Assembly: GCF_016907335.1 (NCBI RefSeq)
Contig: NZ_JAFBBT010000001.1
Coordinates: forward strand, 806,001-870,000
Direction of reading: 5' to 3'
DNA: 64,000 bases
From: Curtobacterium herbarum
GTDB lineage: Bacteria; Actinomycetota; Actinomycetes; Actinomycetales; Microbacteriaceae
Position numbers and translations under genes: made by a program. Of the stretch, positions 7,818-48,776 are shown piece after piece (position 1 is the stretch's first letter; each line of letters starts with the position of its first letter). Under the pieces are notes generated by a model. The model had not been told where the DNA came from, searched no databases, and saw nothing but the letters and a program-made list of their open reading frames with translations.

Positions 7818-7867
7818 GATCCTCGTGGCCACGGTCCCGTCCTGGAGGGCCGTGGTCACGGAGGATC
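7818..7867. terminator. Imperfect hairpin after MFS gene
   Basis: A GATCCTCGTGGCCACGG-like arm pairs with a near-complementary arm ending GGAGGATC, with one mismatch and one bulge. It lies 35 bp beyond the transporter stop, so it is a plausible terminator. Confidence 0.5.
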
Positions 7868-8008
7868 CGATGCACGACACCACCACACCGGCACCACACC
7901 GCCGGAGAGGACAGCGCGCTGTCCTCCACAGACGACAGACCGGCGCGGTTGTCCACCGGGCCGCCGACGCCCTCGGCCATCGGGGCCGCTGTGCATGACG
8001 GTGACCTG

Positions 8009-10375: not shown

Positions 10376-10479
10376 CGGGCCTCCCGTCCGGACGACGCGT
10401 TCGGTGACGCATCCTCCGGTTGCGCTCACTCGGCCGTTGTAGCATCGCCGGACATCGACCCAGCGGCGAGGAGACCTGC

Positions 10480-11472
10480 GTGCCGGAGCTGACCCACCAC
10501 ACCGTCCCGATCGACCGGATCCAGGACGCGGGGGCGGCCGTCATGGCGTCGGTCGCGACCGTGGTGGACGGCAAGAGCGAGGCGATCCGCACCGCTCTCA
10601 CCGTGATGCTGGCGGAGGGGCACCTGCTCGTCGAGGACGTCCCCGGCGTCGGCAAGACCGTGCTCGCGAAGGCACTCGGGGCCTCGGTCGGCGGGTCCGT
10701 GAGCCGCATCCAGTTCACCTCGGACATGCTCCCCTCGGACGTCACCGGCGTGAACATCTACGACCAGTCGTCCGGCACCTTCCGGTTCTCGCCCGGGCCG
10801 GTGTTCGCGAACGTCGTGATCGGCGACGAGATCAACCGCACCAGCCCGAAGACCCAGTCGGCGCTGCTCGAGGCGATGGCGGAGTCGCAGGTCACGGTCG
10901 ACGGCGTGACCCGACCCCTCGAGTCCCCGTTCATGATCGTCGCGACGCAGAACCCGGTCGACATGGAGGGCACCTACCCCCTGCCGGAGGCGCAGCGCGA
11001 CCGCTTCATGGCGCGCATCGCGATGGGCTACCCGAGCCCCGGTGCCGAGCGGCGGATGCTCGCGGCCCGCGGTGGTCACGACCCGCTCGCCGACCTGCGT
11101 CCGGTCGTCGACGTCGACACGCTCCGCGCGATGATCGCGTCGGTCCGCACGGTGCACATCGCCGCGGACGTCGAGGCCTACATCGTCGAGCTCGTCCGTG
11201 CCACCCGCATGCACCCCGACCTGCTGCTCGGCGCGAGCCCGCGGGCGACCCTGCACCTGGCGCAGGCCGCCCGGGCGCACGCGGCGCTCCTCGGCCGGAG
11301 CTTTGTCACCCCGGACGACGTCGCCGCCCTGGCCCCGGTGGTCCTGGCACACCGGCTCGTCCCGGTGGCCCGCGGCCTCGGCGGCTCGGCGGAGGACACC
11401 GCCCGCGGGATCGTCGTCCGGATCGTCTCCGACACCGCGGTGCCGTTCACCGCGACCCCCGTCCGCTCCTGA
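10480..11472 (+). CDS. MoxR family AAA ATPase
   Basis: A 330-residue AAA+ ATPase starting at GTG 10480 after GGCGAGGAGA. Walker A is EDVPGVGKT, Walker B is VVIGDEINRTSPKTQSALLEAM, and sensor 1 is VATQNPVDMEG. All are close to the MoxR consensus. It is the first gene of a MoxR - DUF58 - transglutaminase operon, a common actinobacterial cell-envelope module. There the ATPase is thought to remodel its DUF58/VWA-like partner. The stop overlaps the next ATG (TGATG). Confidence 0.93.
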   Translation: MPELTHHTVPIDRIQDAGAAVMASVATVVDGKSEAIRTALTVMLAEGHLLVEDVPGVGKTVLAKALGASVGGSVSRIQFTSDMLPSDVTGVNIYDQSSGTFRFSPGPVFANVVIGDEINRTSPKTQSALLEAMAESQVTVDGVTRPLESPFMIVATQNPVDMEGTYPLPEAQRDRFMARIAMGYPSPGAERRMLAARGGHDPLADLRPVVDVDTLRAMIASVRTVHIAADVEAYIVELVRATRMHPDLLLGASPRATLHLAQAARAHAALLGRSFVTPDDVAALAPVVLAHRLVPVARGLGGSAEDTARGIVVRIVSDTAVPFTATPVRS

Positions 11473-12806
11473 TGGCCGACCAGCGCCCCGCCGTCCGACC
11501 GTTCGCGCTGCGCGCGGGCGCGGCCGGCTCGGCGCTGTCCCGGATCGGCCGTCGCGGGCTCGGCATGCTGCGCCGCACCCCGTTCCCCCGGCCGACGCTC
11601 CGGGGCTGGACGGTCCTCGCGGTCGGTCTCGGCCTGGTCGGCGGCGGCCTCGTCGCCTCGATGAGCGTCGCCGTGTCCGCGGGGCTCCTGCTCCTGGTGC
11701 TCGTCGTCTCGGGTGTCGTCACCGCACTGGCCGTGGCGGCGCCGCTCCGCGCCTCCCGGTCGGCACCGCGCGCGATCGTGCAGGTGGGGGAGGTCTACCG
11801 GGAACGCGTCACGCTCCGCGGGTCCGAGGTGCGGTTCGCGCCGCGGTCGACGCTGCTGGTCCGAGAGCAGCTCGACGACCTGTTCGTGAGCACGAACGAG
11901 GCCGCGTCGCTCATCACCATCGGACCGGGTGCCCCGCCGGCCGTGCTCGACGTCGAAGCCCTCGCGATCCAGCGGGGGAGGGCGTTCGTCGGCCCGGTCA
12001 CGGTCCGCGTCGAGGACCCGTTCGGCCTGCTCCGCATCGACCGTCCGGTCGTGCCGGCGGAGGAGGTCGTCGTGGTCCCCGGGACGACGCCGCTCGCCGC
12101 ACTCGACACCGGTGCGCTCGTCGGCGCGGTCTCCGCGGACGAGGGCCGGGTCGGTCAGGGCGGTTCCGCCGACGACAGTGAGCTCCGTCCCTACCGACCG
12201 GGCGACCCGATCCGTCGCGTGCACTGGGGGCAGAGCGCGAAGCGAGGCGTCCTGCACGTCCGCCAGACCACGCAGGCGCAGCCGCCGGAGGCCGTGGTCG
12301 CCCTGGACGTGCGCCGATCCTCGTACCAGCAGCTCGGCCGCGACGACCTGTCGGAACTGTCCGACCTCGGCGGCGACCAGGCCTTCGAGCACGCCGTCGT
12401 GGTGGCGGCCAGCGTCGCGCGGGCCCTGTCGGCACGCACCTCCCGGGTCGCGCTCGTCAGCGACGGCCCCGGCGGGGACGTCCGACACAGCGGCGACGCG
12501 GGCGGGCTGTCGGAGGTCCTCGTGGGGCTGGCCGACGTGCAGCCCCGCTCGGACGCCCGCGAACTGACCGACGTCCTGCACGAGGTGCGCGGCCGTGACG
12601 TGCACGGCATGACCGCCGTCGTCACCGGGCACTGCAGCGCGGAGGAGGCGGCCGAACTCGTCTCCACGACGAACGGGTCGAGCCGTGGTGTGCTCGTCAC
12701 CGTCGTCGCCCCGGACCCCGTCGTGCGCGGGATCATGGGCCGTGCCGGGTGGCGCGTGCTCGTGGTCCCGGTGCCCGGCACGACCACGAGCGGACACAGC
12801 CGATGA
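11472..12806 (+). CDS. DUF58 domain membrane protein
   Basis: A 444-residue protein with two N-terminal membrane helices (about 52-90), a beta-rich middle region, and the DUF58 signature ELRPYRPGDPIRRVHWGQSA around residues 237-256. DUF58 proteins are partners of MoxR ATPases, consistent with the gene order. The C-terminal residues TSGHSR are encoded by the first copy of a 32-bp tandem repeat. The TGA stop forms ATGA with the first of three ATGs in that repeat. Confidence 0.93.
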   Translation: MADQRPAVRPFALRAGAAGSALSRIGRRGLGMLRRTPFPRPTLRGWTVLAVGLGLVGGGLVASMSVAVSAGLLLLVLVVSGVVTALAVAAPLRASRSAPRAIVQVGEVYRERVTLRGSEVRFAPRSTLLVREQLDDLFVSTNEAASLITIGPGAPPAVLDVEALAIQRGRAFVGPVTVRVEDPFGLLRIDRPVVPAEEVVVVPGTTPLAALDTGALVGAVSADEGRVGQGGSADDSELRPYRPGDPIRRVHWGQSAKRGVLHVRQTTQAQPPEAVVALDVRRSSYQQLGRDDLSELSDLGGDQAFEHAVVVAASVARALSARTSRVALVSDGPGGDVRHSGDAGGLSEVLVGLADVQPRSDARELTDVLHEVRGRDVHGMTAVVTGHCSAEEAAELVSTTNGSSRGVLVTVVAPDPVVRGIMGRAGWRVLVVPVPGTTTSGHSR

Positions 12807-12838
12807 CCGCCACCAGCCCGAGCGGACACAGCCGATGA
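12803..12838 (+). CDS. Repeat-encoded minigene 1, MTATSPSGHSR
   Basis: Eleven codons plus stop. The ATG overlaps the DUF58 stop by ATGA, and the TGA overlaps the ATG at 12835 in the same way. It arises from the 32-bp triplication. Whether it is translated as a separate peptide is inferred only from the retained overlap geometry. Confidence 0.4.
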   Translation: MTATSPSGHSR

Positions 12839-12870
12839 CCGCCACCAGCCCGAGCGGACACAGCCGATGA
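12835..12870 (+). CDS. Repeat-encoded minigene 2, MTATSPSGHSR
   Basis: Second identical 11-codon ORF. It starts in the stop of minigene 1 and ends in an ATGA overlap with the transglutaminase start at 12867. Ribosomes terminating at DUF58 would need two extra terminate-reinitiate steps to reach the last gene. Alternatively, they could start directly at 12867. Confidence 0.4.
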   Translation: MTATSPSGHSR

Positions 12871-15206
12871 CCGCCACCAGCCCGAGTCGGCAGCGCGAGC
12901 ACGTCGACGTCCGCGAGGTCCTGGACCGTGACGACCGCAGCCCGGACAGCCCCGGCGCCTGGGTCGTCGCCCTCGCCCCGGTGCCCGTCCTGGTCGCCGC
13001 GCTCGCGATGCGGCCGCTCGTGCAGGGTGTCTCGTGGTGGCTGTCCGGCGTGGTCTTCACCGCCGTGCTCGTCGCCGTCGTGCTCGGCGTCCGGACGCGA
13101 CCGCGTGGTGTCCGGTTCGTGGCGCTCGTCGCCACGCTCGTGCTCGGCTCCTGCGCCGCCGCGCTCCTCAACGACACCGCACCGCTCGGGTGGCTCGACC
13201 GGAACGGCGCCCTCGGGCAGACGCTCGCGGCGATCCGCCTGAACCCGGCACCGCTGCCGCAGACCGACTCGATCCGCCTGATCGTGACGGTGGCGATCGC
13301 CTGGGTCGCGGGTGCCTCGCTGTTCCTGGCGGCCGTGGCCCCGACCGCCGCCCTGGCCGCCGCACCCGCGCTCGTGATCCTGCTGGTGCCGGGCATCATC
13401 ACCGGCGAGGCCCCGTCCGCGTGGCTGATCGCCGGCACCGCGCTGGCCTTCCTGGCGCTGCTGTGGACCTCGGTCCGACCGGTGCAACGGGTCTTCCCGG
13501 CGGCCGTCGTCGGCGCGATCGGCCTGGTCGTGGCGATCGGCCTGCCCGTCCTCGTGCCGATCAACGCCGGCTGGCTCTCCGGTGTGACCGGGGCGATCCA
13601 GTCGCCGATCCAACCCGGACGCCCGGGCACCCTGCTCGAACTCGGCCAGGACCTCCGCCGTCCGAACGAGCTCGAGGTGTTCCGCTACCGGTCCTCCGAC
13701 GGGCAGCCGGAGTACCTCAAGCTCGCGGACCTCGACGAGTTCGGCACCGGCGACTGGGTGCCGACCGTCACCGACGCCTCGACCTCGGACACCGCCGACC
13801 AGTCCCGACGGGTGGACGGCATCAACCCCCGGTTGGCGGACCGCGGGGACGTCACCGTCCAGATCACCGGGCTGTCGAGCAACTACCTGCCGGTGCCCGC
13901 CGGTGCGATGTCGGTCGAGTCGAAGTCGACGAACCTGGACCTCACCCAGTGGCGCTGGTCCGGCGACGCGAACACGGTGCGCTCGGCCGGTCCGGCGACC
14001 CGACGCGGCGCGGTCTACGAGGCGTACGGCGCCTCGGTCTCCGCGAACGCCTACCTGGACGCCATCGCCGCGTCCGGCCGGTTGTCCCAGGCGGACGGTC
14101 GCGGCTTCGTCGTGCCGTCCCGGGCGCAGCTCCGGACCGACACGGAACTGCCGAAGGACCTGCCGGCCGTGATCCGCACGACCGCGGCCCGGGTCGACGC
14201 CGGCGCGACCACCGACTACGCCCAGGCCCGGGCACTCGAGCGGTGGTTCCGCAGCGGCCTGTTCACCTACTCCGAGACGGCACCGGTCGAGCAGGGCTAC
14301 GACGGCGACAGCATGGACGTCGTCGCCCGGTTCCTGCAGGAGCGTTCCGGCTACTGCGTGCACTTCGCGTCCGCGATGGCCGTGATGGCCCGGACGCTCG
14401 GCATCCCGTCCCGCATCGCCGTCGGCTACCGCGCCGGTGCGAGCCGTGAGGACGGCCAGTACACGGTGTCGAACCGCCAGCTGCACTCGTGGCCGGAGCT
14501 CTACATCCGAGGCGCCGGCTGGGTGTCGTTCGAGCCGACGCCGGACTCCGACCAGGCCGCACAGCCGCAGCCCTCCGCCTCCGCCACCCCGGCTCCGGCC
14601 CCGACCGAGACGCCCCTGCCGGCCCCGGGGGAGACCGCCCCCTCGTCCGCCTCGGCGACCCCGACCCCGACGCCGACCGCCGCCGCTGCGGGCGGCAGCA
14701 GCACCGGCGGCGGCCCCGTCCCGTGGGGTGTGCTCGTCGGCGTGCTCGTCGCCCTGGCCGTGCTCGCCGCCCCGGGTGCGGTGCGGGCGACGCGACGGCA
14801 CCGACGACTGAGCGGGATCGCCGCCGGGCGACACCCGGCCGTCACCGCCTGGCGCGAGCTGCTCGACGACCTCGCCGACCACGGCTGCACACCGGGATCG
14901 GCTCCACCCGGGGACGCTGCGGCGGTCGCCCGGACGGCACGCGCCGACCTCGGTCGGCTCCGATCGGTCGTGCCGCCATCGGTGCTGCCGCACCTGCGGT
15001 CCGTGGTGGACGCCGTCGACCACGAGCGGTTCGCCGCCGACGGCCGTTCCGACACGCAGGCGCTCCTGCGGTCCGTCCAGGAGGCCCGCACCGCGTTGGA
15101 CGCCGCCGTGTCCGGTGGTCGTGTGGTCCGGTCCCGCCTGCTCCCGCCGAGCGTGCTGCCCTCGGGTCGTCCGTCCGACCGTCGGCCGGCGCCGGCGGCG
15201 GGCTGA
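12867..15206 (+). CDS. TgpA-like transglutaminase membrane protein
   Basis: A 779-residue protein. The N-terminal half carries about six membrane helices (30-250) and an extracytoplasmic region. The transglutaminase-like core has a catalytic Cys497 in RSGYCVHFAS, His540 in LHSWPELY, and Glu556 in FEPTP where Asp is the classical third residue. A Pro/Ala/Thr-rich linker (about 565-615) leads to another membrane helix and a cytosolic C-terminal domain. It completes the MoxR-DUF58-transglutaminase module, which probably acts on cell-envelope proteins. The chosen ATG is the last of three in the 32-bp repeats; earlier ones are out of frame. Confidence 0.93.
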   Translation: MTATSPSRQREHVDVREVLDRDDRSPDSPGAWVVALAPVPVLVAALAMRPLVQGVSWWLSGVVFTAVLVAVVLGVRTRPRGVRFVALVATLVLGSCAAALLNDTAPLGWLDRNGALGQTLAAIRLNPAPLPQTDSIRLIVTVAIAWVAGASLFLAAVAPTAALAAAPALVILLVPGIITGEAPSAWLIAGTALAFLALLWTSVRPVQRVFPAAVVGAIGLVVAIGLPVLVPINAGWLSGVTGAIQSPIQPGRPGTLLELGQDLRRPNELEVFRYRSSDGQPEYLKLADLDEFGTGDWVPTVTDASTSDTADQSRRVDGINPRLADRGDVTVQITGLSSNYLPVPAGAMSVESKSTNLDLTQWRWSGDANTVRSAGPATRRGAVYEAYGASVSANAYLDAIAASGRLSQADGRGFVVPSRAQLRTDTELPKDLPAVIRTTAARVDAGATTDYAQARALERWFRSGLFTYSETAPVEQGYDGDSMDVVARFLQERSGYCVHFASAMAVMARTLGIPSRIAVGYRAGASREDGQYTVSNRQLHSWPELYIRGAGWVSFEPTPDSDQAAQPQPSASATPAPAPTETPLPAPGETAPSSASATPTPTPTAAAAGGSSTGGGPVPWGVLVGVLVALAVLAAPGAVRATRRHRRLSGIAAGRHPAVTAWRELLDDLADHGCTPGSAPPGDAAAVARTARADLGRLRSVVPPSVLPHLRSVVDAVDHERFAADGRSDTQALLRSVQEARTALDAAVSGGRVVRSRLLPPSVLPSGRPSDRRPAPAAG

Positions 15207-43576: not shown

Positions 43577-44616
43577 GCGGGCCCGGCATCACGAACGGTG
43601 CTGGGTTCACGAACGGCGCTGGGTTCACGAACGGCGCTGGGTTCACGAACGGCGCCGCGTTCACGAACGGCACGGAGGCCCGGCACCGGATGCGCGTCGC
43701 CGACCGACAGCGGGTGGCCGAGGACGTCGTCACGCTCGACCTCGCCCTCGTCGACGGTGCTCCCTTGCCCGACTGGGAGCCCGGCGCCCACGTGGACCTC
43801 GAGGTCACGCCCGGCACCGAACGCCAGTACTCGCTCGTCACCACCACCCCGGACGGGCACTGGCGGGTGGCGGTCCTCCGCGAAGCCGCCGGTCGGGGCG
43901 GGTCCGTCGCCGTGCACGACACCCTGCGCACCGGCGACGAGGTCCTGGTCGGTGGCCCGCGCAACCACTTCGGCTTCGACCCCGACCGCCCCGCGGTCTT
44001 CGTCGCCGGTGGCATCGGGATCACCCCGATCCGCGCGATGATCGCCGCCGCCGAGGCAGCCGGTACCCCGTGGGAGCTGCACTACGCCGGGCGCTCCCGC
44101 GACCGGATGGCGTTCGCTGACGAGCTCCTGGCCGCGCACCCCGACCGGGTCGACCTCGCCGCGGCCGACGAGGCACCCCGGTTGAACGTGGTCGGGCTGC
44201 TCGCCGAACCACGGGACGCCGTCGTCTACTGCTGCGGTCCGCGCGGCCTCATGGACGCCGTCGAAGCCGCCGCCGCGCACTGGCCGGCCGGCAGCGTCCG
44301 GGTCGAGCGCTTCGAGCCCGCCGCCGCCGTGGACGCGCCCGGGGAGTCGTTCGAGGTCGAGCTCACCCTGACCGGGACGACCGTCACCGTCCCCGCCGAC
44401 CGGACCCTGCTCGAGGTCGCGGAGGAGGCCGGGGCCTTCGTCCTGTCGTCCTGCCGCGAGGGCACCTGCGGCACGTGCGAGACCCCCGTCCTCGAGGGTG
44501 CCGTCGAGCACCGGGACACCGTGCTCAGCCCCGCCGAGCAGGCCGACGACCGCACCATGATGGTCTGCGTCTCCCGCGCTGCTGCCGGCTGCCCGCGACT
44601 GGTGCTCGAGCTCTGA
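43573..44616 (+). CDS. Phthalate-dioxygenase-type reductase (FMN/2Fe-2S)
   Basis: A 347-residue electron-transfer protein. Flavin domain: RQYSLV. NAD domain: FVAGGIGITPIRAMI and YCCGPRGLMDAV. The C-terminal plant-type ferredoxin has ligands C294, C299, C302 and C332 (Cx4Cx2Cx29C). This layout is that of vanillate O-demethylase and phthalate dioxygenase reductases, which feed Rieske oxygenases. No oxygenase gene lies in the window. Residues 5-34 are five 18-bp-encoded GFTNGA-like hexapeptides, absent from normal members. A downstream ATG at 43690 is a possible true start. Confidence 0.88.
   Translation: MSGPGITNGAGFTNGAGFTNGAGFTNGAAFTNGTEARHRMRVADRQRVAEDVVTLDLALVDGAPLPDWEPGAHVDLEVTPGTERQYSLVTTTPDGHWRVAVLREAAGRGGSVAVHDTLRTGDEVLVGGPRNHFGFDPDRPAVFVAGGIGITPIRAMIAAAEAAGTPWELHYAGRSRDRMAFADELLAAHPDRVDLAAADEAPRLNVVGLLAEPRDAVVYCCGPRGLMDAVEAAAAHWPAGSVRVERFEPAAAVDAPGESFEVELTLTGTTVTVPADRTLLEVAEEAGAFVLSSCREGTCGTCETPVLEGAVEHRDTVLSPAEQADDRTMMVCVSRAAAGCPRLVLEL
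43585..43674 (+). repeat. Five 18-bp in-frame repeats
   Basis: Five 18-bp units encode GITNGA, GFTNGA, GFTNGA, GFTNGA and AFTNGT at the reductase N-terminus. Units 2 and 3 are identical at base level and unit 4 differs by one base, so expansion is probably recent. Confidence 0.95.
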
Positions 44617-48200: not shown

Positions 48201-48776
48201 TCAGGGCGCGGCGACGACGGACGCCTGGAGCGCGCGGATCGTGACGGCGAGGCCACCGGAGGCCAACAGGCCGGACCCGAGCGGCCCGGACGAGTCGGTC
48301 CCGAGCAGGGGGAGTCGGCGCAGTGCGCGTCCGACCTCAGCGCTCATGCTCCCGATCTGCCAGCGGAGTTCGTCCGCACCCGATCCGGAGTACCCGAGCC
48401 CGGCTGCACGCACCGCGTAGGCAGCGGCGCCGAGCGCATGGGCGCCCATGTGGGCGACACCCGATGCCTGGCCGGCGGCGAACCCGGCCGCTCGTGCTGC
48501 CGGGTCACGCACGGCAGAGGCGGCGCGACCGGTCTCGAAGCGCCGGCGGATCATCTCTGCTGCGTCGATCTCCCCGCGGGCGAAGGCCCGCGTCCGCACG
48601 ATGCCGTCACGGGGCCGGCCGTCACGGGGCCGGCCGTCACGGGGCCGGCCGTCACGGGGTCGGCCGTCCTCGGGGGCGTGGCGCTCGAACAGCGGGAGGA
48701 CCCGCTCGGCGCAGTCCGCGGCCCACGCGGCGAGGACCCGGCGGTCGGTGAGGTCCAGTGTCTGCGGCGAGGCCAT
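48201..48776 (-). CDS. Imm-5-like putative immunity protein
   Basis: A 191-residue, all-helical, Ala-rich protein. It resembles Imm-5-like immunity proteins: VLAAWAADCAERVLPLFE at the N-terminus, then RPRD, a basic RAFARGEI helix, and AARAAGFAAGQASGVAHMGAHALGAAAYAV. No toxin gene adjoins it. Residues 38-57 are four GRPRD copies encoded by 15-bp tandem repeats, where relatives have one RPR element. ATG 48776 is chosen; ATG 48800 is possible. Confidence 0.65.
   Translation of the reverse strand: MASPQTLDLTDRRVLAAWAADCAERVLPLFERHAPEDGRPRDGRPRDGRPRDGRPRDGIVRTRAFARGEIDAAEMIRRRFETGRAASAVRDPAARAAGFAAGQASGVAHMGAHALGAAAYAVRAAGLGYSGSGADELRWQIGSMSAEVGRALRRLPLLGTDSSGPLGSGLLASGGLAVTIRALQASVVAAP
48606..48665 (-). 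repeat. Four 15-bp in-frame repeats
   Basis: Four GTCACGGGGCCGGCC units (three identical, one with a single change) encode GRPRD on the minus strand inside the Imm-5-like gene. Confidence 0.95.

Follow-up and report, generated by a model that had tools for sequence, protein, structure and literature searches.

A tandem array of stop-start overlaps between the DUF58 and transglutaminase genes of Curtobacterium herbarum

The array at the DUF58/TgpA junction

The window analysed here is a 64,000-nucleotide stretch of the Curtobacterium herbarum genome (contig NZ_JAFBBT010000001.1, positions 806,001 to 870,000), in which genes encoding a MoxR ATPase, a DUF58 protein and a TgpA-like transglutaminase lie consecutively, all on the + strand. 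Three perfect copies of a 32-bp unit occupy the junction between the DUF58 and TgpA genes (Table 1), and TRF reported a period of 32 bp, 3.1 copies and a 100% match at 12787–12886. The DUF58 stop codon is the TGA at 12804–12806, and each step of the chain is an ATGA overlap, with ATG codons at 12803, 12835 and 12867. As a minigene with its stop spans 36 nt and overlaps its neighbour by 4 nt, the 32-nt period reproduces the stop-start coupling at every step. The chain leads from the DUF58 stop through two minigenes, each encoding MTATSPSGHSR, to the transglutaminase start. The three perfect units with their ATGA overlaps, this geometry and the order of the chain had been described in an earlier note on this DNA, and its coordinates proved exact.

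With up to 3 mismatches allowed, the unit occurs three times in the window and in none of 100 shuffles. No copy beyond the three in the array was found within 7 mismatches in 464 kb of the genome (the window and four 100-kb blocks, 400 kb, of the same genome). A whole-genome DNA search with a 301-base query returned the array locus and one weak match outside the unit, with no further unit copy. The genome is a single contig of 3.5 Mb and is 99.99% complete. Besides the ATG at 12867, no alternative ATG, GTG or TTG was found in the TgpA frame between 12807 and 12981, the next downstream being the GTG at 12981. The Shine-Dalgarno duplex energy is equally weak at all three starts, −5.2 kcal/mol.

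Table 1 Features of the DUF58/TgpA locus (positions in the window)
Feature	Position	Strand	Remarks
MoxR-type AAA ATPase gene	10480..11472	+	PF07726 and PF17863; start set by codon-usage gene finder; upstream in operon
DUF58 gene, upstream partner of the junction	11472..12806	+	PF01882, 34.9 bits (cut-off 23.4)
Repeat unit 1	12787..12818	+	Includes DUF58 stop and start of minigene 1
Weak Shine-Dalgarno-like GGA	12792..12794	+	8 nt 5' of ATG 12803
Minigene 1, MTATSPSGHSR and stop	12803..12838	+	4-nt overlaps with DUF58 and minigene 2
Repeat unit 2	12819..12850	+	TRF and unit search
Equivalent GGAs at the other two starts	12824–12826, 12856–12858	+	Sequence
Minigene 2, MTATSPSGHSR and stop	12835..12870	+	4-nt overlaps with minigene 1 and TgpA
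Repeat unit 3	12851..12882	+	4 nt of a further copy (CGAG) follow, to 12886
TgpA-like transglutaminase gene, downstream partner	12867..15206	+	PF11992 (TgpA_N) and PF01841 (Transglut_core)

The longest open reading frame (ORF) of the MoxR-type gene starts at 10420. Two other near-perfect tandem repeats are present in the window, at 43589–43671 (18 bp, 4.6 copies) and at 48603–48668 (15 bp, 4.4 copies).

Chance expectations were derived from the 464-kb sample, in which genes were called by a simple home-made gene finder based on codon usage. The sample contains 278 same-strand neighbour pairs, 60 of which overlap by 4 nt; chains of ORFs of at most 60 codons connect 9 of the same-strand pairs. 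Chain statistics were obtained for the 113 same-strand pairs separated by gaps of 15–150 nt, with shuffled gaps as the null. Five chains of at least one link were observed versus 3.67 expected, and two chains of at least two links versus 0.17 expected. In a genome as GC-rich as this, one link is therefore nothing unusual, whereas two are, and chance alone was rejected as the source of the two-link array but not of single links. One of the two longer chains is the DUF58/TgpA array, a locus chosen beforehand, and the other is an array of 17-nt units located elsewhere. When the DUF58/TgpA locus is excluded, one chain of at least two links is left, versus at most 0.17 expected.

Linker minigenes in the genus

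A genus-wide search, with one genome per species, matched 66 of 66 genomes. The junction was readable in 65; in the other genome (G049), which is outside the tally and the tree, the contig ends one base 3' of the DUF58 stop. A contig scan of the genomes also gave 50 loci. Hereafter, G000 denotes the window genome and G044 its sister species; the junctions at loci L003 and L004 match those of G036 and G020.

DUF58 leads directly into TgpA in 58 of the 65 genomes and through linker minigenes in seven, while the chain is broken in none. One link is present in six genomes, and two links are found in G000 only. The DUF58 stop is TGA and the last frame is that of TgpA in 65/65 cases. All 65 junctions have the geometry of termination-reinitiation (TeRe), namely 4-nt overlaps, seven of them via links. 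The earlier note had expected that copy number could change without breaking the operon, and relatives with 0, 1 or 2 links and an intact chain at every readable junction agree with this.

The links vary in sequence. MTATSPSGHSR is encoded twice in G000, and the single G044 linker, lying in an array of two units that carry their own substitutions, is MTATSPSGHTR. Diverged links of 11 or 12 codons are found in a four-species group comprising G001 (MTAPRTDGHRR), G040 (MTAVTTADGRRR), G045 (MTADPTAGGQRR) and G035 (MTADPTADGQHA). The seventh linked species, G023, is distant in the tree and features a 27-codon linker ORF built of repeats of about 20 nt. Extra DNA at the junction amounts to 32–80 nt in the seven linked species. 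A GGA is located 8 nt 5' of the TgpA start in all six linked species of the clade that includes G000. Shine-Dalgarno duplex energies at the TgpA start range from −5.0 to −5.8 across eight clade species; in the 58 direct junctions, G036 and G020 included, the median is −6.7 and the range −11.5 to −5.0.

Other variations were noted at this junction. Locus L117, the junction of which is the same as that of L040 (Curtobacterium sp. Leaf261), carries an independent array of units of about 20 nt, which reads as one 27-codon linker containing an internal in-frame ATG. In L087, L101 and L081 (G024, G025 and G029), the TgpA N-terminus has grown by glycine-rich in-frame repeats just 3' of the overlap, which is the 0 mod 3 counterpart of the linkers. 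The TgpA frame stops after 294 codons in L072 and L043 (CP121450), perhaps owing to a frameshift or a sequencing error; the estimated completeness of G010, to which L072 belongs, is 65%.

At the family level, a TgpA_N match was obtained in 254 of 299 genomes, and 30 of these loci were read at a DUF58-like stop. Nine directly open a long ORF, which may be TgpA, one runs off the locus, and 18 have no overlapping start. The remaining two, L127 and L143, open ORFs of 48 and 53 codons; only L143 continues into a long ORF, which may likewise be TgpA. No link of 11–12 codons was found among the 30 family loci read.

Origin and drift of the links

A tree was built from the DUF58 and TgpA proteins of the 65 genomes (847 columns, LG+F+R4), and thus reflects the flanking genes, not whole genomes. 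G000 and G044 are sisters, followed by G036, then by G020, and then by the group of G001, G040, G045 and G035, with supports of 95–100. G036 and G020, which lie between the two linked groups, have no link. Within the clade, this branching implies either two origins of the links or one origin and two deletions. The G023 link is a further, independent origin.

The one-unit loci L003 and L004 have a GAGC tetramer on either side of the junction, at a spacing of exactly 32 nt, so that a unit length of 32 is what mispairing at GAGC would be expected to produce. In G001, a 26-nt stretch that differs from the G000 unit is repeated exactly, 32 nt apart, a sign of renewed duplication or homogenisation. 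Links are 32 or 35 nt long, a 3-base difference that keeps the frame, or 80 nt in G023, and all of these lengths are 2 mod 3. By arithmetic, a tandem duplication across an NTGA overlap creates a coupled minigene when its length is 2 mod 3, extends the N-terminus of the second protein when it is 0 mod 3, and in most cases abolishes coupling when it is 1 mod 3. Because the two links of G000 add up to 64 nt, which is 1 mod 3, what is preserved is each overlap, not the total length.

Linker peptides have drifted. The links of G040, G045 and G035 are identical at 7–9 of 12 residues, versus 91–92% identity in the flanking genes, and 12 of 13 pairwise codon differences alter the residue. The linker peptide is therefore not under visible selection, although twelve codons are a small sample and provide a weak test. 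With the same limit of a short sequence, the conserved amino-acid sequence expected of a functional small protein was not found in these three links. In the G000 peptide, the beginning of TgpA is followed by the end of DUF58, the arrangement that a duplication would yield.

The second array of the 464-kb sample, with a GTGA unit of 17 nt, lies where an ABC permease gene ends (L152, approximately 7840–7900; G000:C1, approximately 67,840–67,900). Its geometry is the same, but the following gene starts 143 nt farther on and has its own AGGAAG site. Twenty loci were read, of which 11 are close (87% or more) and nine are 27–35% relatives. Among the close loci, G000 has three GTGA units and G044 (L170) two, while the nine others, of which three end in TAG, have no repeat. 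Since this array varies upstream of a gene with an AGGAAG site of its own, such arrays may come and go without a role.

A putative termination-reinitiation relay

From the geometry of the sequence, the microhomology seen in relatives, the spread of links over species and the drift of the peptides, we regard the array as probably made of slippage-born, near-neutral links of a TeRe relay, derived from the duplicated DUF58/TgpA stop-start overlap. The ancestor would have had one junction, with GAGC on both sides, 32 nt apart, and mispairing at this tetramer would have duplicated 32 nt holding one ATGA. Each added copy would then supply an ATG, ten codons and a TGA overlapping the following ATG and, because 32 is 2 mod 3, every extra copy would automatically be a relay link. 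We infer that the links are translated and that ribosomes pass along the chain. A ribosome leaving DUF58 would restart at 12803, make MTATSPSGHSR, restart at 12835 and then at 12867 for TgpA. No function would attach to the linker peptides themselves, and what is retained is the uninterrupted run of overlaps. Slippage would allow copies to be gained, lost and homogenised at low cost, whereas diverged copies would not easily disappear, as TgpA would be uncoupled by a frameshift.

Experiments on coupled genes bear on this proposal. Of 14 pairs examined in which the stop and the start overlap, 13 were strictly coupled (PMC6728339). In six pairs studied elsewhere, coupling was almost lost at a distance of about 20 nt, and in two Escherichia coli pairs the final 15 nt of the upstream gene sufficed for reinitiation (PMC10666635).

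Several observations weigh against the relay. A lone linker is weak evidence, as chains of one link are near chance (5 versus 3.67), and links common to related species are not independent. Tandem duplications were detected at 7 of 395 gene stops in the sample of this genome, three being 2 mod 3, three 1 mod 3 and one 0 mod 3, with the DUF58/TgpA locus counted among the first three; no preference for 2 mod 3 was seen among these gene-end duplications. Since they occupy all three classes, the 2 mod 3 class at this junction need not be selected. As a control, four duplications were found at 332 points inside genes, all 0 mod 3. TgpA may also start de novo; de novo initiation accounted for 10–30% at one of two tested E. 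coli downstream genes (PMC10666635). Furthermore, a review cites other studies in which coupling occurs across longer spacers (PMC12548453); a spacer thus need not uncouple, and the size of the penalty is debated.

On another reading, the spacer is irrelevant, TgpA starting independently at the ATG at 12867 and the repeats being neutral filler whose reading frames are due to chance. Chains with one link or more do fall near the shuffled expectation, and the GGA located 8 nt 5' of the ATG in every unit could recruit ribosomes. Yet a chain-breaking spacer occurs in 0 of 65 species, though seven carry 32–80 nt of extra DNA. Two-link chains exceed expectation (2 versus 0.17, or 1 without the DUF58/TgpA locus), and the Shine-Dalgarno energies at the TgpA start of the clade (−5.0 to −5.8) lie at the weak end of the genus range. 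We consider independent initiation quite unlikely as a full account. If the number of units were itself selected, the array could act as a rheostat or a phase-variable switch, with each stop-start step lowering or changing TgpA relative to DUF58 and slippage supplying heritable variation. The perfect copies must be recent or homogenised, copy number varies among close species (two links in G000, one in G044, none in G036 and G020), and, with G023 counted, the genus has seen two or more origins of links. The three starts have, however, identical Shine-Dalgarno energies, 58 of 65 species manage without a link, and the 17-nt array also differs between G000 and G044 despite the separate ribosome site of the next gene. 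Predicted folding with 1, 2, 3 and 4 units revealed no trend with copy number, the unpaired values being 0.30, 0.06, 0.29 and 0.29 for the TgpA ATG and 0.19, 0.46, 0.27 and 0.33 for the TgpA GGA region; an RNA-structure switch was rejected on these grounds. The tunable or phase-variable control put forward in the earlier note thus finds no support in the equal starts and in the 17-nt array, and selection on unit number seems unlikely. The same doubt extends to a broader proposal, according to which NTGA overlaps would be self-templating, any 2 mod 3 duplication inserting a coupled minigene, and operons would gain, count and lose relay steps; the unit number at this locus would set the DUF58:transglutaminase ratio as a heritable rheostat, and the diverged link would be locked in.

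That the linker peptides act as small proteins in their own right or as regulatory leaders is very improbable. Seven of 65 species do have a linker ORF, but 58 lack it, it is only 11–12 residues long in six of the seven, and 12 of the 13 codon differences between pairs of three related links alter the residue. The make-up of the G000 peptide, a TgpA head and a DUF58 tail, is that expected from duplication. A functional peptide was judged unlikely on the drift of the sequence. Perfect short repeats could, in principle, make the third copy an assembly artefact, but the genome is a single, nearly complete contig and the 96-bp array is shorter than usual sequencing reads. Moreover, the two units of the sister genome are distinguished by substitutions. 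The earlier note would have withdrawn its proposal if relatives had single copies and the array arose by artefact in this assembly; the two substituted units in G044 speak for the array as such, while the third copy is seen in this assembly alone. An artefact is exceedingly improbable.

The proposed relay can be compared with known systems. In phase variation by variable number tandem repeats, perfect units change in number and switch a frame off; the units at the DUF58/TgpA junction are likewise perfect and able to change in number, but their number keeps each coupling instead of switching the frame off. Mycobacterial interspersed repetitive units (MIRUs) form a dispersed family present at many loci. 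They are short, apparently mobile repeats at the gene start in many mycobacteria, with an ORF coupled at −4 nt to the gene, a coupling thought to permit insertion with minimal effect on the gene (PMC12548453). At senX3-regX3, 77-bp units vary from two in BCG Pasteur to three in BCG Danish (PMC9392950). As in MIRUs, the repeat ORF here lies at −4 nt to the flanking gene, a geometry present in the ATGA at 12803, 12835 and 12867; unlike those dispersed, mobile-looking elements, the 32-bp unit is a local copy of the junction, with no dispersal found in 464 kb at up to 7 mismatches. As far as tested, the case would work like a MIRU array made of a local junction copy instead of a dispersed repeat. 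Coupling by TeRe at NTGA overlaps has the same 4-nt geometry (PMC6728339, PMC10666635) but usually involves one overlap and two full genes, whereas three overlaps in series run through two minigenes here. Short upstream ORFs may deliver ribosomes to a coupled gene (PMC12548453), and handing on ribosomes would similarly be the sole role of the links; unlike such entry points, each minigene would be fed by the upstream gene and serve as a relay link. A search of open-licence papers returned no report of this locus, and MIRUs were the sole precedent for stop-start tandem arrays in operons.

If the spacer penalty is severe, an untranslated insert of 32 or 64 nt would uncouple TgpA, which the minigenes would prevent. 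The locus provides a natural series of 0, 1 and 2 links in close species, in which the cost of termination-reinitiation per step would be measurable. It also suggests a simple rule for how tiny ORFs come into being within operons, namely a duplication with a length of 2 mod 3 across an NTGA overlap. If the links are translated but their peptides idle, caution would be needed in the annotation of small proteins. Should diverged links indeed be locked in, as the broader and unlikely proposal has it, small ORFs that began as dispensable could in this way become essential to an operon.

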